Notes under the pieces: model-generated | Told to the model about the DNA's origin: nothing | The model's input: only the letters and a program-made list of their open reading frames with translations | Databases searched by the model: none | Position numbers and translations under genes: made by a program | Source: Defluviicoccus sp. | Lineage (GTDB): Bacteria; Pseudomonadota; Alphaproteobacteria; MPNO01 | NCBI GenBank assembly: GCA_028820945.1 | Contig: JAPPHW010000205.1 | Location: forward strand, 1 to 7,608 | Length of the DNA stretch: 7,608 nucleotides | Direction: 5' to 3' | In this document: positions 1-7,497 of the stretch, piece by piece | Position numbering within the stretch: the stretch's first letter is position 1 | Layout: each line of letters opens with the position of its first letter

Positions 1-1123
1 CCGGAGAGCCGGTTCCGTTGGTCACGTTGGCGAACGCGATCGTGTCCTCGAACATGCGCGCCGGCGCGCCCTTGAGCCGGAACGCGTAGGTGTAGACCTC
101 GGTCCTGTCGACCGCGACCGGGTGGACCACGCGGAGCTGGCGGAACTGGCTCATGAAGGAAAGGTTGGGCCAGACGTTCGAGTTCCAGCGCATCACCTCC
201 ATGACGCGCCTCGTCTCCTCCGTTCCCTTCTTCGCTTCGAGCGCCGCGACATATTCGGCGAAAGCCGGATCGCCGCTCGCCGCGACCAGCTTCTCGTCGT
301 CGTGATAATCGCCGAGGAACGCATGCCCGCCCGGATAGGTCCATATCCCCACCCGTTCGCGCCAGAACTCGGGCGGCGCGCCGTTCTGGCGCATCTGGCG
401 GACGGCGATTTCGCCCGCGCCGGTGGTGTGCGCGGTGTCGTCCTGCGCCCTGGCCGCGTCGATCGAGGAGCGGTGGACGAAAATCGGATGCGCCGCGTCG
501 CACAGATTCTCCAGATAGAGCTTCCAGTTGCCGTCATAGGCATGCCTGAACACCCCGCCCGCGACCTCGATCTCGTCGTCCGGCGACCGGTCGACCATGT
601 CGTCGAAGGAGGTCGTCATGTAGCCGAGGAAATCGGCGAGCGGCGGGCCGTCCCCGGCAAGCGAGGCGAAGACGAACCCGCGATAGCTGTCGACGCGCGG
701 CGCCGCGACCATCGCCGTCCCCGGGTCGTCGGGGTCGAAATGCGCCGGGTAGCCATGCCGGAGCGGCACGTGGACCAGTCTTCCGTCGGTAGCGTAGGTC
801 CAGCCGTGATAGCAGCACTCGAACCGCTTCGCGTTGCCGCTCTCCTTCGCCACCACCATCGCGCCCCGGTGGGCGCACTGGTTGTGGATCACGCGGATCG
901 AGCCGTCTTCGTGGCGCACCATCACCATCGGCCGTCGGCCGATCCGGGTCCTGACGAAATCTCCCGGCGCCCTTACCTGGCTCTCGTGCCCGACATAGAT
1001 CCAGGCGTGCCCGAAGATGCGCTCCATTTCGATTTCGAAGATCGCCGGGTCGGCATAGACCCGGCGATGCACCCGCCCGGGCCGGATCAGCCCGGCGATC
1101 TCCTCACTGGTCGGTTCCGGCAT
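1..1123 (-). CDS. Rieske non-heme iron ring-hydroxylating oxygenase, large (alpha) subunit, benzoate/anthranilate-dioxygenase-like; 3' end cut by window edge
   Basis: This frame is open from ATG 1121-1123 to the left edge: 374 codons with no stop. The start follows a strong Shine-Dalgarno, GGGAGGAG (complement of 1127-1134), three bases from the ATG. The Rieske [2Fe-2S] ligands are Cys83-x-His85 and Cys103-x2-His106, within CAHRG and CCYHGW. The catalytic domain has NWKLYLEN followed by Asp209-x2-His212-x4-His217: the bridging Asp and two histidine ligands of the mononuclear iron. The stretch WPNLSFMSQFRQLRVVHP resembles the BenA/AntA family. The third iron ligand, an Asp, is expected just beyond the last visible residues (NGTGSPG), so it cannot be checked. 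The family takes electrons from a reductase or ferredoxin and adds O2 to aromatic substrates in the cytoplasm; no partner is in view. It lies 28 bp downstream of another Rieske gene on the same strand, so the two are probably cotranscribed. Family is secure; substrate is unknown. Confidence 0.93.
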   Translation of the reverse strand, partial: MPEPTSEEIAGLIRPGRVHRRVYADPAIFEIEMERIFGHAWIYVGHESQVRAPGDFVRTRIGRRPMVMVRHEDGSIRVIHNQCAHRGAMVVAKESGNAKRFECCYHGWTYATDGRLVHVPLRHGYPAHFDPDDPGTAMVAAPRVDSYRGFVFASLAGDGPPLADFLGYMTTSFDDMVDRSPDDEIEVAGGVFRHAYDGNWKLYLENLCDAAHPIFVHRSSIDAARAQDDTAHTTGAGEIAVRQMRQNGAPPEFWRERVGIWTYPGGHAFLGDYHDDEKLVAASGDPAFAEYVAALEAKKGTEETRRVMEVMRWNSNVWPNLSFMSQFRQLRVVHPVAVDRTEVYTYAFRLKGAPARMFEDTIAFANVTNGTGSP

Positions 1124-1151
1124 CGACTCCTCCCTGCCCGGCGCCCCGCGA

Positions 1152-2372
1152 CTATTCCGCCCCGATTTCCACAAGACTGTCATACGCTATTCGGGAGAGA
1201 TCGATCACGGCGCCGGGCTCCTCGATATCGCGCAGCACCCCCTTGGGATCCCTGCCGGCCTCGACATCGCCGATTCCCCGTTCGATCAGACGGCGCAGCA
1301 GGATCACGCCTTCATCGGATGTCGCCAGGCGCTCCGTCGCGCGGTCGAAGACCGGGCCCTGGCTCGCGATGGCGACGAAATCCTGTTCGCGGTGCACGCG
1401 GATGGAATTCGTGACATCGAACGTCACGCCGTCCGGCAGGTCCGGCAGGCGGCCCTCGATCTCGGGCGTGAAACAGGCGGCGAACACCAGCGTGTTGCGA
1501 TCGTCGACCGGCGTCCGCCAATTGGCCGAGAAGCGGGGCCATCCGATTCGACCGCCGGGCCATGGCTGCGGCAGGCGGTGCATGGTCGGCATGACGTAGT
1601 AGGAAGCGCGCCGGTTGCCGCGCTCCGGGCGATCCGCGGACGATTTGATGCCGAGCGCCTCCTCCTCCCATACGATCCGGGGCATCTCGTCGCCCCAGAT
1701 GTCGCGCCGTTCTCCGCCCGCCCCGCCATGGAGGATCGTCGTGTGGACCTGATCGACCGAATTTTCGCATATCTGGAGCCAGTTCACCGGCCACAAACCG
1801 TAGTTCTCCACCGTTCGGACGCCATCGGTGCGGGCAAACACGTCGAAGCGCGGCAAGACGGGCGGTTCGTCCCGCCCCATATAGGCCCACAGCAGACCGC
1901 CCATCTCGCGGAGCGGGTATGCGGTGTGACGCACCTTTTCGGGGAAATTGCCGAGAGCGGGTTCCGCCGGCATTTCGAGGCAGCGCCCTTCGATGTCGAA
2001 CAGCCAGCCATGATAGCAGCAGGAGATGCCGCGTTCCTCGATCCGGCCATGCTCCAGGGACGTGCCGCGGTGGGGGCAGTGGAGGCCGATCAGACCCGGC
2101 CGCCCCGCGCCATCCCGGAAAAGGACGAGGTCTTCCCCCAGAATGCGCACCCGCATCGGCGCGCCCTTGAAGTTGCCGAGGCGCTCGCCCCAGCTTTCGG
2201 CCGTGCCGCGCTCGCCTTCGAAGCGCACCGTGCGGCTGCATTGCCAGAGGGTCGAGATTCCGTCCCACCGGTCGGATACGGCGATGGGATGCCAGAAGCG
2301 GCGCAGCCACTCTCCCGCGGGCGTGCCGGGCCCGACGCGGGTCAGGCGCTCGTTCCGTTCGGCGGATAGCAT
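1152..2372 (-). CDS. Rieske non-heme iron oxygenase, large subunit, phthalate 4,5-dioxygenase-like
   Basis: Complete 406-residue protein, normal length for the phthalate-dioxygenase/O-demethylase type, whose oxygenase is usually homomeric. The Rieske centre is Cys99-x-His101-x16-Cys118-x2-His121 (CPHRG, CCYHGW). The mononuclear iron motif is NWLQICENSVDQVH plus His215, giving Asp207, His210 and His215. A later EQD (Asp331) followed by ASQGP-x-DR matches the conserved tract of this type and is the likely third iron ligand. The N-terminal GTPAGEWLRRFWHP is also typical of the group. It probably hydroxylates, or oxidatively demethylates, an aromatic compound, using electrons from a separate reductase that is not in view. 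ATG 2370-2372 is preceded by AGGGAGG with a rather long gap of about 11 bases. It is the first gene of a minus-strand operon with the BenA-like gene, and divergent from the TRAP transporter. Substrate cannot be read from sequence. Confidence 0.94.
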   Translation of the reverse strand: MLSAERNERLTRVGPGTPAGEWLRRFWHPIAVSDRWDGISTLWQCSRTVRFEGERGTAESWGERLGNFKGAPMRVRILGEDLVLFRDGAGRPGLIGLHCPHRGTSLEHGRIEERGISCCYHGWLFDIEGRCLEMPAEPALGNFPEKVRHTAYPLREMGGLLWAYMGRDEPPVLPRFDVFARTDGVRTVENYGLWPVNWLQICENSVDQVHTTILHGGAGGERRDIWGDEMPRIVWEEEALGIKSSADRPERGNRRASYYVMPTMHRLPQPWPGGRIGWPRFSANWRTPVDDRNTLVFAACFTPEIEGRLPDLPDGVTFDVTNSIRVHREQDFVAIASQGPVFDRATERLATSDEGVILLRRLIERGIGDVEAGRDPKGVLRDIEEPGAVIDLSRIAYDSLVEIGAE

Positions 2373-2412
2373 CGAAACACGGGCCTCCCTGGCCTCGCGG
2401 CACGTCTATTCA

Positions 2413-2441
2413 AGGCAAGTCCTTCGCGTGTGCCGGGTCAA
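2413..2441 (-). promoter_or_regulatory. Possible sigma70-type promoter for the Rieske operon
   Basis: On the minus strand, TTGACC (complement of 2436-2441) is a good -35 element. Seventeen bases later comes TTGCCT (complement of 2413-2418), a poor -10. An inverted repeat GCCGG-N9-CCGGC (2432-2450) overlaps the -35 and could be an operator. The position, about 40-70 bp before the start codon, is right, but the -10 is weak. Confidence 0.22.
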
Positions 2442-2478
2442 CCGTCCGGCTAAGATACTCTCCCGGGACAAAGCCTCG

Positions 2479-2492
2479 CGCAATGGCTTGCG
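2479..2492. promoter_or_regulatory. Candidate operator: inverted repeat CGCAA-N4-TTGCG in the divergent intergenic region
   Basis: A perfect 5-bp inverted repeat (2479-2483 and 2488-2492) lies midway in the 189-bp gap between the divergent Rieske and TRAP operons. This is where a shared transcription factor would be expected to bind. No regulator gene is in the window. A repeat this short can arise by chance in GC-rich DNA. Confidence 0.22.
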
Positions 2493-2561
2493 GTTTTCCG
2501 GGCCCCATTGTCGGAGTAGCATCGAGCTCCGTCACGCCTCGCAGCCCCGAAGGAAACCGCG

Positions 2562-3551
2562 ATGAACAGACATGGAACGAGAATCGCCGCCGCCGCGCTG
2601 GCGCTACTGGCTCTCGCCGGTCCCGCCGCCGCTCAGGACGCCATCCGGATCGGCACGTCCAGCGTCGGGAGCGTCTTTTACACCGTTGCCATAGGCGCAT
2701 CCGAGATCATCACAAAGCACGCAAAGATCAACGCGACGGCCGAGCCCGTCGGCGGATCGTCCGCGAATATTCGCGGCCTCGCCGCCGAGCGGATCGAGTT
2801 CGCGCTCGCCAACTCGTTCGCGGCGTTCACCGGGTATTACGGCACGCATAATTTCAAGAAGCCGGTCGATGTCCGGCTGGTCGTGCAGGGACAGGCGAGC
2901 TACCGCTGGATGCTGGTCCGCAAGGGTTCGGGCGTCACCAAGCTCTCCGATCTCAAGGGAAAGACCATCGTCGCCAAGCGCCGCGCGCTACCCGAGATCG
3001 AACTCGTCTGGAAGGCGATGCAGAAGATCTCCGGGGTGACGGACGTAAAGGCGGTCGCCACCACCAACTCGCCCCAGGCCTACAAAGCGTTCCGTGCCGG
3101 CAGCATCGCCGCCGGCGTGATGCCGTTCAGCCGGCGTGCGGCCGCGGTCGCGAAGCCGATGCAGGACGGGGTAATCGATTTTCTCTATTTGTCGAAGGCC
3201 GACCGCGACGCCATGCTCGAGCATCTGCCGCCCATGATGTGGGCCGGCAAGTTTCCCAAGGGCACCTACAAGGGGCAATCCAAGGACGTCCACCTTGTCG
3301 GCCTGAACACCTATTTCCTGACCCGGCCGGGGGTGTCCGACGACACCGTTTACAAGGTTGCGAAGGCGATACTGGAGAACACCGAGGAGTTCGGCACCTA
3401 TCACAAGGCCGCCCTGCAGTGGAACCTCGACCGTGCGCTCAAGAACGTGCCGCTTCCCTTCCATGACGGCGCGATCGCCTATTTCAAGGAGAAGGGCCTC
3501 TGGACGGCGGCGCTCGAGGCCAATCAAAAGAAGCTGCTCGCGCGCAAGTAG
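2562..3551 (+). CDS. TAXI-family TRAP transporter substrate-binding protein
   Basis: A 329-residue periplasmic binding protein that captures the ligand and delivers it to the permease encoded next. Residues 1-24 form a signal peptide: basic MNRHGTR, an Ala/Leu-rich core, and a PAAA|QD cleavage site. The mature protein opens with IRIGTSSVGSVFYTVAIGAS, the characteristic TAXI N-terminal strand, glycine loop and YxxA helix. GGSSANIRGLAAERIEFALAN follows, matching the family's SV.N...l..g...ia..q block. TAXI proteins are known or proposed to bind carboxylates such as glutamate or other organic acids. The ligand here is unknown; the divergent Rieske oxygenases make an aromatic acid an attractive guess. 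ATG 2562 has GAAGGA (2549-2554) seven bases upstream. Length is typical. The permease gene starts 78 bp after the TAG stop. Confidence 0.93.
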   Translation: MNRHGTRIAAAALALLALAGPAAAQDAIRIGTSSVGSVFYTVAIGASEIITKHAKINATAEPVGGSSANIRGLAAERIEFALANSFAAFTGYYGTHNFKKPVDVRLVVQGQASYRWMLVRKGSGVTKLSDLKGKTIVAKRRALPEIELVWKAMQKISGVTDVKAVATTNSPQAYKAFRAGSIAAGVMPFSRRAAAVAKPMQDGVIDFLYLSKADRDAMLEHLPPMMWAGKFPKGTYKGQSKDVHLVGLNTYFLTRPGVSDDTVYKVAKAILENTEEFGTYHKAALQWNLDRALKNVPLPFHDGAIAYFKEKGLWTAALEANQKKLLARK

Positions 3552-3552
3552 A

Positions 3553-3575
3553 GCCCGGCCGTCGACGGCGCGGGC
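3553..3575 (+). promoter_or_regulatory. GC-only hairpin just after the binding-protein stop codon
   Basis: Bases 3553-3561 pair with 3566-3569 and 3571-3575, with G3570 bulged and loop TCGA (3562-3565). The centre is the perfect palindrome GCCGTCGACGGC (3558-3569). It begins two bases after the TAG and has no T tract, so it is a poor intrinsic terminator. In transport operons such hairpins often protect the 3' end of the binding-protein message, so the binding protein is made in excess over the permease. That role is inferred here from position and structure only. Confidence 0.45.
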
Positions 3576-3629
3576 CCGGCCCGACGCTTCGATCCGACGC
3601 CGTTTCCCCCGGCACGGCGCATACCGGCC

Positions 3630-5531
3630 ATGAGCCGCCGCATCGGCATCTTGACCTGGCTCGCCACGGCGATCGCGATCTACCATCTCGTCGTCGTGGC
3701 CCAGGGCCCTACCTGGTTCGGCATCTTCCTGCCGACCCAGCTTCACAAGGCGGTCAGCATCTCCTGCGCGATGATCCTGATCTTTCTGCTGCTGCCGGCG
3801 GGCGGGCGAAAGCACGGCGAGGACACGCAGGCCGAGTCCCGATTTCGGCGCGTTCCCTGGTACGACTGGCTTCTGCTCGCCTCCGGCCTGATCGGGGCCG
3901 GATTCGTCATCGTCGACCACGAAGCGATCCTCGACTACGGCGAATACGGCTTTCTCGACGGCAAGGGTATCGTCCTGGGCGCGATGCTCGCCGTTCCCGT
4001 GCTGGAAGCGGTGCGGCGGACCACCGGGTGGGTATTGCCCGCGATCATCCTGTTTTTCGTCCTGGTGACCATCTTCCAGCAATACCTGCCGGGGCTGCTC
4101 TACGGCCGCGGCTATCCGCTCGACCGCATGCTCTACTCCGCGTATGTCAGCGAGGCCGGCATTTTCGGCCTCCCGCTCGGCATCGCGGCGAATATCGTGA
4201 TCGTGTTCCTGATCTTCGGCGCCCTCATGGAAGGCGCCGGCGCGAGCCGCTGGTTCATGGATATCGCTCTCGCGCTGACGGGCTGGTCGCGCGGCGGGCC
4301 CGCCAAGGCCGCCGTGGTCGCGAGCGCGATGTTCGGCTCGATCTCGGGATCGCCGTCCGGAAATTCGGCGACGACGGGCGTGTTCACGATCCCGCTGATG
4401 AAGAACATCGGCTATACGCCCGCCTTCGCCGCGGCCGTCGAGGCCGTCGCATCCACCGGCGGGATAATCCTGCCGCCGGTAATGGGCGCGATCGCTTTCA
4501 TCATGGCGGAATGGATCGAGACGACCTACACGGAGATCGTGATCGCCGCCGCGGCGCCCGCCGCGCTCTATTTCCTCATCGTCTTCGTTTCCGTTCACCT
4601 CCAGGCGCGGGCTCAGGGCATCGCCGCGCTCCCCCGCACCGACCTTCCGCCGCTCTGGCGGACGCTCCGGCGCGGCTGGTACTACCTGATTCCGATCGGG
4701 GCCCCGATCTATTTCCTCGTCGTGAAGTCGCTGCCGCCGGGGATGGCCGCGATCTACAGCTGCGCATTCGTCATCGCCGTGAGCTTTTTCGCCAGGGACC
4801 GCGGCCATTGGCTCACGCCCGCGCGGATCATGAGATCGTTCGAGGACGGCGTGACCCGGTGGATCACCATCGCCGCGATAACCTCGGCGGTGGGCATCAT
4901 GATCGGCGCCCTGGAGCTCTCCGGCGTCGGTATCAAGTTCTCGCGCTTCATCGTCGATCTCGCCGGCGGCGATCTGATCCTGACGCTTCTCTTCGTGGGC
5001 ATCGTCAGCCTGATCGTCGGGATGGGGCTCGACGCGACGCCGGCCTATATCACGCTCGCGACGCTGATGGCGCCGGCCCTGGTCCGCCTCGGCGTGCCGG
5101 ACATCGCCGCTCATCTCTACGTCATCTACTGGGGGCTCGCCTCATTCTTCACGCCGCCAACCTGTATCGCGGTATTCGTCACTTCCGGGATCGCCGGAAG
5201 CCGCGTCTGGTTGACCGGCTGGGAGGCCGTGCGGCTGGGCATCGCGGCATTCCTGATCCCCTTCGCATTCGTCCTGAACCACGGGCTCCTGATGCGGGGC
5301 AGCGTCGAGAGCATCCTGCTGGCGATCGTCACCGCCGTCATGGGCGCGACCGCGCTGTCGGCCGCGATCCGCGGCTTCGCCCTCTCCGCCCTCAACCCGG
5401 CGCAGCGGGTGGCGATCTTCGCGGGCGGCCTGCTTCTGATCGGGCCGGGGCTCTACTATCCCCTGATAGGTCTCGCGCTGTGCGCCGCCGCGATCCTGCC
5501 GCAGGCCCTCCGCGCGGCCCGGCGCCGATGA
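3630..5531 (+). CDS. TRAP transporter fused permease (4TM/12TM, DctQM-type) of the TAXI class
   Basis: A 633-residue inner-membrane protein with roughly 16 or more hydrophobic segments. The N-terminal third (about 1-130) is the small-subunit-like part. The rest is the DctM-like large subunit that moves substrate with Na+ or H+ co-transport. Family signatures include GSISGSPSGNSATTGVF (236-252), IPLMKNIGYTPAFAAAVEA (254-272), STGGIILPPVMGAIAFIMAE (275-294), GMGLDATPAYITLATLMAPA (464-483), and FFTPPTC followed by SGIAGS (506-524). Length fits fused TAXI permeases. It pairs with the upstream binding protein. ATG 3630 has no recognisable Shine-Dalgarno, consistent with lower permease synthesis or translational coupling; the exact start is therefore less certain. 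The protein ends in a basic RAARRR tail at TGA 5529-5531. Substrate is not predictable from sequence. Confidence 0.94.
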   Translation: MSRRIGILTWLATAIAIYHLVVVAQGPTWFGIFLPTQLHKAVSISCAMILIFLLLPAGGRKHGEDTQAESRFRRVPWYDWLLLASGLIGAGFVIVDHEAILDYGEYGFLDGKGIVLGAMLAVPVLEAVRRTTGWVLPAIILFFVLVTIFQQYLPGLLYGRGYPLDRMLYSAYVSEAGIFGLPLGIAANIVIVFLIFGALMEGAGASRWFMDIALALTGWSRGGPAKAAVVASAMFGSISGSPSGNSATTGVFTIPLMKNIGYTPAFAAAVEAVASTGGIILPPVMGAIAFIMAEWIETTYTEIVIAAAAPAALYFLIVFVSVHLQARAQGIAALPRTDLPPLWRTLRRGWYYLIPIGAPIYFLVVKSLPPGMAAIYSCAFVIAVSFFARDRGHWLTPARIMRSFEDGVTRWITIAAITSAVGIMIGALELSGVGIKFSRFIVDLAGGDLILTLLFVGIVSLIVGMGLDATPAYITLATLMAPALVRLGVPDIAAHLYVIYWGLASFFTPPTCIAVFVTSGIAGSRVWLTGWEAVRLGIAAFLIPFAFVLNHGLLMRGSVESILLAIVTAVMGATALSAAIRGFALSALNPAQRVAIFAGGLLLIGPGLYYPLIGLALCAAAILPQALRAARRR

Positions 5532-5675: not shown

Positions 5676-5679
5676 GGAG
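5676..5679 (+). promoter_or_regulatory. Ribosome binding site deciding the start of the AhpD-like selenoprotein
   Basis: GGAG lies 4 bases before ATG 5684 and 10 bases before the in-frame ATG 5690. Either could be used, and they differ by only two residues. A third in-frame ATG at 5528 overlaps the permease stop as ATGA, but it has no Shine-Dalgarno and would add 52 Arg-rich residues unlike the family. The site therefore favours 5684 or 5690. Confidence 0.6.
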
Positions 5680-5683
5680 AACC

Positions 5684-6796
5684 ATGAAAATGACCCTCTA
5701 CGAGGATTCTCGATACAAGGTACGGGAGGATCTCGACGCGGTTCACGCCGAACAGCTGGATCGGCTGGCCGACCCCGGCACCTGGGGCACCGGCGCCCAG
5801 CGGCTGGCGATCGCAAGAGAGGTTCGTCAGGCGTGTTACGACGCGGGTACGCAGGAAGAACCGGAAGACACCGGCCCGCTGAGTAATGTCGAACTGCCGG
5901 AGTCGGTATGCGCAACGGTCCGGAAATTGGCCGTCGCGCCCAAGGACTTCATCGAGGACTCTTACGAAGAGGCCAGGAACGGCGGTCTGAGCGACGAGGA
6001 ATATGTCGAGGTCGTCGGCATCGTGTCGCGCCTGACCGACATGGACGTATTCGCCCGCGGCATCGGAGTTCCGCTGCGTCCTCTGCCCGCCGCGCGCGAG
6101 GGCCGGCCGTCGCGGGTCCGCCCCCGGGTCGCCAGGAAGGAAATGGCCTGGGTGCCGACCGTTCCGAACCTCCCCGAGGGCGGCGAGGAGGCCGCGGAGA
6201 TTTACGGCCCGGACTATCGGCCCTACATCATCCGCTCCCTCAGCCTGGTGCCGGACGAGATGCGGCGGCATCTCCAGCTGGAAGAAGTGCAATACCTGCC
6301 GATGAAGAATGTGTTCGTCACGGATTATCAACACCATGAGGGGTTCACCCGCGCCCAGGTCGAGCTGATCGCGGGCCGGGTGTCCGCCCTCAACGAGTGC
6401 TTTTACTGAACGGCGGGCCACGCCTGGTTCCTCCGTGAGAGTGGACGCAATACCGGCCTCGACGTCGATTTGGCGGCGCTGTTCGACCCGGATCGGGACA
6501 GCGGGGTCCCCGGCGGCGGGGAAATCCTGGCCTTCGCCGATGCCGTCATCGGTCCCGACCGGGTCGCGCTGGACCGGGCGCGGCGGAATCTCGCCGATTC
6601 GCTGGGGCCGGCGGCGGTGCCGGCCGCGGCGGCCATCGCCGCGACCTTCACCAAGAACGATCGCATCGCCAACGGCACCGGCATTCCCTCCGAGCTGAAG
6701 ATGCTGCGGAATTCCAGGGAAATCCGGGCGGAATTCGGGATAAACGACTACCGGTCGTCGGCGAACACGTTCAGGCACTATCCCGACGAGCGGTAG
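5684..6796 (+). CDS. Two-domain carboxymuconolactone decarboxylase/AhpD-like selenoprotein; in-frame TGA 6407-6409 read as selenocysteine (CxxU)
   Basis: Read through the TGA, this is a 370-residue protein; stopped there, it would be 241 residues. The family fold carries AhpD-type disulfide peroxidase chemistry. The second domain (about 175-290) has a PYIIRSLSLVP helix, then FTRAQVELIAGRVSALNE leading to Cys239-Phe-Tyr-Sec242-Thr-Ala-Gly-His246. This is the AhpD pattern E-C-x2-C-x3-H with the second Cys replaced by TGA. After the TGA, residues 243-370 continue as family-like sequence, including a helical segment and NDRIANGTGIP (324-334), and end at TAG 6794-6796. The first domain (about 70-130) repeats the fold, but its site is degenerate: Met120, Phe123 and Ile127 replace Cys, Sec and His. 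A SECIS-like hairpin follows the TGA. Likely a cytoplasmic thiol/selenol redox enzyme; substrate unknown. The alternatives are a nonsense mutation or a sequencing error at that Cys. Start is ATG 5684 (or 5690). Confidence 0.85.
6407..6409 (+). other. Selenocysteine codon (in-frame TGA), residue 242
   Basis: The TGA occupies the position of the resolving/attacking second cysteine of the AhpD CxxC motif (Cys239-F-Y-TGA-T-A-G-His246). TGA differs from the Cys codons TGC and TGT at one base. Coding potential and homology-like content continue in the same frame for 128 sense codons downstream. A nonsense mutation could fall anywhere; falling exactly at the redox cysteine is what a Sec-for-Cys replacement predicts. 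Confidence 0.85.
6427..6446 (+). promoter_or_regulatory. Candidate bacterial SECIS element (bSECIS) in the selenoprotein mRNA
   Basis: GUUC (6427-6430) pairs with GGAC (6443-6446), including one G-U pair. CUC (6431-6433) pairs with GAG (6439-6441). U6442 is bulged between the two helices. The apical loop is CGUGA (6434-6438), with G as its second base, and it begins 24 nt after the TGA. This meets the usual bacterial criteria: a short upper stem, a small loop with G in the first two positions, and 16-37 nt from the Sec codon. A bulged U is also present in the E. coli fdhF element, though there on the 5' side. SelB would bind it to deliver Sec-tRNA. Folded by eye only. Confidence 0.65.
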
Positions 6797-6918: not shown

Positions 6919-7497
6919 CTACTTCTCGATATAGCCGAGCGTGATCGGGTGCCCCTTTCGTTGTTCTTCCGCCGCCCCGGTGTGTTTTCCGGAGTTCCAG
7001 CCAACCGGGCGCAGCACGCGCTCGGCGAAGTCGATCGATTCCTGGTCGGTGACCGTCGCGATGGTGTCGTTCCAGCGGTTCAGGAAGCCGCCGACCGCGA
7101 TCACCGCCAATATCTCGATGATCTGGTCGTTCGAATAGTGCTTCCGCAGTTCGGCGTAATTCTCCGGTTCGACGACGTTCGGCGAGACGCCCGCCGCGAA
7201 GGCCAGATCGAGCGCCGCCCGCTCGGCATCCGAAAACTCGGGCGAGGTCCGATAGCTCCAGAGCGCCTGGATTTTCTCATCCGCGACTCCGAGCTTGTGG
7301 AGGTGGTAGGAGCCATGGGACTGACAATGCAGGCATCCGCTTGCCAGGCTCGCGGCGGTGAATATCAGCTGTTTGAGCCCCCCATCGATACCGCGGCTCG
7401 GAAAGACGAGCCTCAAGAGATCGTTCACCTTCTCCCGCAATTCGGGCCAATGGTGCATCTCGAGGTTTTGCCGGTCTTCGTATTCTGTCGCTGCCAC
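6919..7497 (-). CDS. Carboxymuconolactone decarboxylase/AhpD-like family protein (Cys type)
   Basis: A 192-residue protein containing one CMD/AhpD domain. The active-site motif is SGCLHCQSHGSYHLHKLG, with Cys55-x-His57-Cys58 and His61. This is the redox CxHC centre of peroxidase-like members and is fully cysteine-based. The preceding helix LKQLIFTAASLASG and the later SNDQIIEILAVIAVGGFLNRWNDTI are typical of the family. A reaction on peroxides or an alkyl hydroperoxide is plausible; the substrate is not known. The start is GTG 7495-7497, chosen because GGGAGG (complement of 7504-7509) lies six bases upstream. No ATG occurs in frame until Met14. It converges on the selenoprotein gene but belongs to a different, single-domain subfamily, so it is not a recent duplicate of it. 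Confidence 0.9.
   Translation of the reverse strand: MAATEYEDRQNLEMHHWPELREKVNDLLRLVFPSRGIDGGLKQLIFTAASLASGCLHCQSHGSYHLHKLGVADEKIQALWSYRTSPEFSDAERAALDLAFAAGVSPNVVEPENYAELRKHYSNDQIIEILAVIAVGGFLNRWNDTIATVTDQESIDFAERVLRPVGWNSGKHTGAAEEQRKGHPITLGYIEK

Follow-up and report, generated by a model that had tools for sequence, protein, structure and literature searches.

The window analysed here, a 7,608-nucleotide (nt) stretch of a contig from Defluviicoccus sp., carries a gene that is a new member of the catalogued selenoprotein family NF041238 (NCBIfam AhpD_rel_CFYUT, 'alkylhydroperoxidase-related (seleno)protein'). The protein scores 374.8 bits against the family model, which has a cut-off of 175, and an in-frame TGA in the gene is very likely read as selenocysteine (Sec), completing a predicted CxxU motif; two AhpD-like domains are predicted, and the motif lies in the second. 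An earlier note on this DNA had described the TGA as lying inside a CxxC-type motif with 128 open codons after it, and this could be read directly from the sequence: NECFY precedes the TGA and TAGHAWFLRESG follows it, the CFY-TGA-T motif is encoded at 6398-6412, and 128 sense codons separate the TGA from the stop codon TAG at 6794-6796. Translation from the ATG at 5684 gives 370 residues with Sec at position 242, and translation from the ATG at 5690 gives 368 residues with Sec at position 240. The ATG at 5690 is the likelier start because a GGAGA sequence lies 9 nt upstream and because the 239-residue predicted proteins of relatives start there. Residue numbers (Sec242, Cys239 and the others) are counted from ATG 5684. 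The present analysis extends the description of the catalogued family: a sestrin-like architecture with tandem domains is predicted, the CxxC is absent from domain 1 in the window branch, codons at a candidate selenocysteine insertion sequence (SECIS) are nearly frozen, and a broad survey found no cysteine forms.

The TGA was conserved throughout the aligned relatives. A scan of genome contigs, with search patterns that left out the TGA column, yielded 240 relative-encoding stretches, of which the top 80 were analysed as loci; their 84 copies and the window gene gave an aligned set of 85 genes. The codon at the Sec column was TGA in 85/85 and TAA or TAG in 0/85, so the homologues with an in-frame TGA at the aligned position that the earlier note had called for were found in every case. 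TGA was also present in 41/41 copies at loci L083-L121, which are partly the same genes again. The frame stayed open for 118-166 codons past the TGA across the 85 genes. Twelve pairwise comparisons with the window gene were made for the ratio of nonsynonymous to synonymous substitution rates (dN/dS); one was saturated, and in the remaining 11 the ratio was 0.13-0.40 past the TGA, similar to the 0.12-0.32 before it. The downstream part had been taken for recognisable family sequence, and the NF041238 model did match each side of the TGA separately, with 239.8 bits for the 241-residue upstream piece and 110.5 bits for the 128-residue downstream piece alone. The nearest locus, L001 (Defluviicoccus sp. 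isolate p16x60bins.37), matched the selenoprotein gene at 93%. Conservation of the TGA, constraint downstream of it and the family match together support the AhpD-type CxxU selenoprotein that had been proposed.

If the TGA were a real stop, the gene would encode a 241-residue protein or be a pseudogene, and the downstream frame would be separate or dead. Gene callers do stop there, as had been expected of standard annotation: the predicted proteins of all 26 relatives that were fetched, drawn from the matches listed (120 of 652), end in CFY or CFF, and a 108-codon open reading frame starting at TTG 6470 exists. We consider this highly improbable given that no aligned gene has TAA or TAG at this column and that purifying selection and the family match continue past the TGA. 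A stop here would also interrupt the AhpD motif and remove His246, which is invariant in 114/114 aligned sequences. An extremely improbable alternative is that the TGA is decoded in another way, by a genome-wide TGA=Trp code or by plain read-through. Reading TGA as Trp opens the frame by construction, but TGA serves as the ordinary stop of the neighbouring TRAP gene and of 27/85 family genes, distant AhpD proteins have cysteine at the Sec position, and Sec machinery was found in relatives. With the TGA read as Sec, gene calling cuts these genes in the middle of the active site, so that a third of each protein and the predicted catalytic residue are lost from the databases, as in each of the fetched entries.

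The Sec machinery was searched for in the genomes of 25 relatives; the 25 loci leading to them were chosen from the 80 for spread. Matches over the curated cut-offs were obtained for selB in 24, for tRNA-Sec in 24, for selA in 24 and for selD in 22 genomes. The exceptions were G009 without a selA or selB match, G022 without tRNA-Sec, and G004, G006 and G009 without selD. In G001, the genome of L001 and the nearest one, selA, selB, selC and selD were all over their cut-offs, and a single 4.6-kb stretch covered the selA match, the selB match and a tRNA-Sec with the anticodon TCA. Among 14 control genomes, matches over cut-off were found for selB in 2, selA in 1, selD in 2 and tRNA-Sec in 5, which makes tRNA-Sec the least selective of the markers. 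As a separate observation, the SelD matches in 8/25 relatives (G007, G008, G013, G014, G017, G018, G020 and G021) had one internal TGA, so that SelD is probably a selenoprotein itself in those genomes. Twelve other SelD matches were stop-free open frames of about 730-780 residues and may be fusions, a guess from their length.

Downstream of the TGA, a candidate SECIS apical hairpin was recognised, with the stem GUUCCUC / GAG-U-GGAC, a bulged U, and the loop CGUGA at 6434-6438, 24 nt after the TGA. The bacterial SECIS model given in a passage of a 2026 review (PMC13188914) has a loop of 3-9 nt, a stem of 4-16 bp, a G in the first two loop positions and a spacing of 16-37 nt; the window hairpin has a 5-nt loop, 7 bp with one bulge, G as the second loop position and the 24-nt spacing. 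Synonymous-codon identity, defined as the same codon being used by pairs of sequences that share the amino acid, was 99% at codons +7 to +12 in 41 alphaproteobacterial sequences, compared to 45% gene-wide and 55% in the best six-codon stretch away from the TGA. In the 44 other sequences the values were 79-80% at these codons, 44% gene-wide and 58% at best elsewhere. Counting from the T of the TGA, positions 25-27 read CTC and position 29 reads G in 85/85 genes. The best pairing included the 3'-side bulged U in 36/41 alphaproteobacterial sequences and was without a bulge in L022, L024, L027, L031 and L038; across all 85 genes, 37 paired best in the bulged form and 41 in the plain form, 7 were tied, and 66 retained all seven pairs when the better of the two forms was taken. 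The number of paired cells was higher than in all 500 shuffles, both in the alphaproteobacterial set and in the 44 others. In energy, the hairpins of L046 and L022 beat all but 2/200 shuffles. Since the folding energy of the window region is ordinary, the SECIS is argued from the frozen codons and from the pairing across relatives.

The predicted architecture has two AhpD-like domains in one chain, as in sestrins. A DDYDY-type motif, which a passage of PMC11429811 defines as the sestrin hinge in the second domain, was absent from the translation. The carboxymuconolactone decarboxylase (CMD) model PF02627 matched residues 218-254 with 26.8 bits over a gathering threshold of 23 when cysteine was put in place of Sec. 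The TIGR00778 AhpD core domain gave 25.0 bits, under its cut-off of 27.8, and the TIGR01926 peroxidase-related enzyme 40.0 bits, under its cut-off of 81.8. The window branch differs from other family members in domain 1: a CxxC was found there in 65/72 of the other members compared but in 0/42 sequences of the window branch, among which L038 lacks that stretch. On a quick tree with a midpoint root, the domain-1 CxxC needs three changes. We tentatively prefer an ancestral CxxC that was lost in the window branch over a gain, because the motifs of both domains align in the profile comparison.

Several results weigh against parts of this reading. The evidence for selA, selB, selC and selD comes from the genomes of relatives. 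Domain 1 and domain 2 matched each other in the profile comparison with a probability of only 54-61%, Foldseek returned no PDB match at E ≤ 0.001, and the passages covered in the literature gave no enzyme activity for NF041238. The SECIS hairpin is weak in energy. The passage of PMC13188914 sets a minimum free energy of ≤ -7.5 kcal/mol; the 20-nt hairpin has -4.3 kcal/mol, and the 44 nt from the TGA, which include a further hairpin, have -13.7. The energy of the 20-nt hairpin was equalled by 51/200 shuffles, 6,597/20,000 synonymous recodings were as good in energy and 560/20,000 retained all seven pairs, and folding at 44, 60 or 77 nt after the TGA was not better than shuffles. The minimum free energy was dropped as evidence for a SECIS, since the region is ordinary compared to both shuffles and recodings. 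Covariation is thin: in the alphaproteobacterial set one pair changed on both sides, which 195/500 shuffles reached, and in the 44 others two pairs did so (reached by 322/500), with nine such cells (reached by 0/500). An Rfam scan of the window gave no match, and a tRNA scan was also empty. A SECIS core in common with the SelD of the host was likewise rejected: CUCCG was absent from SelD of four alphaproteobacterial relatives, and only CCGU was common. This comparison used four of the eight SelD stretches, and for L126 the chosen TGA context does not resemble SelD.

One expectation of the earlier note failed, namely that homologues with cysteine aligned to the TGA would be found. Four surveys of 1,285 genomes in total gave 107 matches over the NF041238 cut-off, in 62 genomes, and each had exactly one internal TGA. 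These comprised 52/52 matches in the class of G001 (27/385 genomes), 1/1 in the class of G022 (1/369), 6/6 in the phylum of G020 (4/296; one match passes only together with its in-frame neighbours) and 48/48 in the phylum of G023 (30/235). The best 5, 5, 6 and 8 candidates per genome were scored, respectively, so further copies could escape, and the place of the internal TGA was read for the copies in fetched loci, not in each of the 107. The surveys overlap with the 25 relatives at G001, G011, G016, G018, G020, G022 and G023. When all candidates in the 25 relatives were scored, 64/65 rows over cut-off had one TGA; the exception covers profile 1-148 and represents the N-terminal piece of a split copy. 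The cut-off was reached in 0/14 control genomes. A protein search with residues 236-370 of the window protein gave a score to none of 3,515 candidates, and one that used the C-terminal portion of a paralogue returned three matches, two of them bearing unrelated Pfam domains. The position holds cysteine in distantly related AhpD proteins, 6k40 among them; the case for a selenoprotein rests on the conservation of the TGA. Below the cut-off, many stop-free AhpD-type matches covered the C-terminal half of the profile. In contrast to our survey, a table in the 2005 Sargasso Sea paper (PMC1088965), whose method required cysteine homologues, lists 7 and 5 of them; these may fall below the present NF041238 cut-off.

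The seven nearest genomes (G001-G006 and G010) had 2 to 5 copies each, so NF041238 is a multi-copy family in which the window gene is one branch. Other arrangements were also seen. The Dehalococcoidia loci L066, L073 and L074 each had two tandem NF041238-like genes, both with an in-frame TGA, and the Myxococcota locus L075 had a divergent pair. One paralogue in G006 (C47:79640-80743) is broken into two profile matches that overlap, pointing to a frameshift or an assembly error. AhpD-type frames below the cut-off, of about 190-400 residues with one internal TGA, were present in the phyla of G020 and G023 (for example G945:C246, G886:C1 and G1165:C4) and may be further single-domain CxxU selenoproteins.

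A tentative scenario, which we think doubtful, would make NF041238 a Sec-only branch of the tandem-AhpD (sestrin) fold. At first its chain would have held two redox centres that differed in strength, a CxxC in domain 1 and a CxxU in domain 2. The domain-1 centre would later have been lost from the alphaproteobacterial branch to which the window gene belongs, while Sec was always retained, and there would be no cysteine form because the reaction needs selenium. According to a passage of PMC13188914, nearly all selenoproteins have cysteine homologues. If the scenario is true, NF041238 breaks the rule that selenoproteins nearly always have far commoner cysteine versions. Its one internal TGA in 107/107 matches over the cut-off makes the family well suited to asking which reaction depends on selenium.

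In AhpD, the second cysteine of the CxxC motif is the attacking residue. By analogy, Sec242 is predicted to be the attacker and Cys239 the resolver. SelB bound to the hairpin at 6427-6446 would deliver Sec-tRNA to the TGA, and the chain is predicted to fold as a tandem AhpD with sestrin architecture, in which Glu227, Cys239, Tyr241, Sec242 and His246 would form the AhpD relay. Sec242, in place of the second cysteine, would attack a hydroperoxide or a disulfide to give a selenenic acid, Cys239 would resolve this to a selenenylsulfide, and a thiol reductant would then reduce the selenenylsulfide. Since the window branch lacks the CxxC that occurs in domain 1 of other family members, this half may serve a structural or regulatory role. 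The offsets of the relay residues (-12, 0, +2, +3 and +7) are the same as in the Glu-Cys-Tyr-Cys-His relay of PA0269 (Glu36, Cys48, Tyr50, Cys51 and His55), for which a passage of PMC3141380 gives weak peroxidase activity.

Two other roles for the selenoprotein were considered. The protein might serve chiefly in redox-dependent sensing or in binding a partner, as sestrins do, and not as a bulk detoxifying enzyme. The whole-length match to Sestrin2, the one domain without a redox motif in the window branch, as described for Sestrin2 in a passage of PMC4674687, and the presence of 2-5 copies in each of the seven closest genomes speak for this role. We find it unlikely: the redox domain retained here is the second compared to the first in sestrin, the protein has no DDYDY motif, and there is no known partner. 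The protein could instead mainly dehalogenate small molecules reductively, its selenol attacking the halogen by deiodinase-like chemistry. The single-domain relative Bmp8 (6ohi, 6ohj), a debrominase, is a precedent, but it differs in lacking the tandem architecture, and for NF041238 a dehalogenase activity is only conjectural; we regard this role as quite unlikely. The preferred reading remains the AhpD-type relay centred on Sec242.

Table 1. Features of the selenoprotein gene in the window (residues numbered from ATG 5684)
Feature	Position	Strand	Basis or remark
GGAGA, Shine-Dalgarno-like	5676..5680	+	9 nt before ATG 5690; read from sequence, function inferred
AhpD-related selenoprotein coding sequence	5690..6796	+	NF041238, 374.8 bits, profile 1-356 of 357
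Domain 1, predicted AhpD-like, end approximate	5690..6094	+	structure model, profile comparison, TIGR01926 stretch at residues 75-114
Domain 2, AhpD-like, with CxxU	6140..6718	+	
Glu227 codon, predicted relay glutamate	6362..6364	+	12 residues before Cys239; E in 114/114 aligned
Cys239 codon, first CxxU position	6398..6400	+	C in 114/114
Tyr241 codon, predicted relay tyrosine	6404..6406	+	Y in 105/114, F in 9/114
In-frame TGA (codon 242), predicted selenocysteine, second CxxU position	6407..6409	+	conserved in aligned genes
His246 codon, predicted relay histidine	6419..6421	+	H in 114/114
Apical hairpin of predicted bacterial SECIS	6427..6446	+	codon identity, pairing; weak in energy

L001 shares the gene order of the window. 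Its TAXI binding protein, its TRAP permease and its two Rieske proteins are 97-99% identical to those of the window and its CMD protein is 96% identical, so the window probably comes from a close relative of that isolate. In the window, positions 1-5531 hold two Rieske-type oxygenase proteins (2-1183 and 1152-2372, both on the minus strand) and, next to them on the plus strand, the genes of the TAXI binding protein and of the TRAP permease, which is a fused form. This block was complete in L001; in the other six close loci, with flanks of up to 6 kb, only L015 had one Rieske gene (92%), and the block may be unrelated to the selenoprotein gene. The CMD/AhpD-type protein of 192 residues, encoded convergently to the selenoprotein gene at 6919-7497 on the minus strand, has an ordinary CxxC (SGCLHCQSH) and reached 63.9 bits compared to the cut-off of 310 for NF053654, a YciW-related (seleno)protein model. 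Its gene adjoined the selenoprotein gene in the seven closest loci (L001-L006 and L015) at 93-96% identity. A conserved operon partner was rejected, since among the window neighbours only this convergent gene stayed adjacent, and it did so in those seven loci.

The earlier note had suggested that a two-domain Sec form may be little described. This needs correcting: the long form is the standard of the family and is catalogued as NF041238. No publication on its tandem, sestrin-like architecture turned up among the papers listed by the literature search. A search for the accession returned the 2026 review alone, and among the matches listed for selenoproteins in sponge symbionts no title was relevant. 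Table 1 of that review (PMC13188914) equates NF041238 with the Sargasso Sea 'hypothetical protein 1', for which a passage of PMC1088965 reports a CXXU, together with a predicted SECIS, in four sequences; the same entry appears in PMC9312934, with no domain given. The window protein resembles this family in its CFYUT motif, its CxxU, its in-frame TGA and a score far over the cut-off.

Among proteins of known structure, human Sestrin2 (5dj4, 5t0n and 5cuf) matched the predicted chain over its whole length at 8% identity. In Sestrin2, according to a passage of PMC4674687, the active Cys125 is in the first domain, the second cysteine is replaced by leucine, and the protein with the first cysteine only reduces cumene hydroperoxide; the window protein differs in having its CxxU in the second domain. 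Domain 2 is similar in fold and sequence to the peroxidase-related AhpD proteins (TIGR01926; 6k40, 3c1l, 2prr and 2oyo), but those are single-domain proteins of about 190 residues with cysteine in place of Sec. The bacterial two-domain AhpD proteins YciW and the alkyl hydroperoxidase of Corynebacterium ureicelerivorans, compared here by their description in a passage of PMC11429811, likewise combine two AhpD-like domains in a single chain, the Corynebacterium protein having its cysteines only in the C-terminal domain; both are described with cysteine. The tandem AhpD shape of the window protein would also offer a bacterial, redox-active comparison for sestrins.
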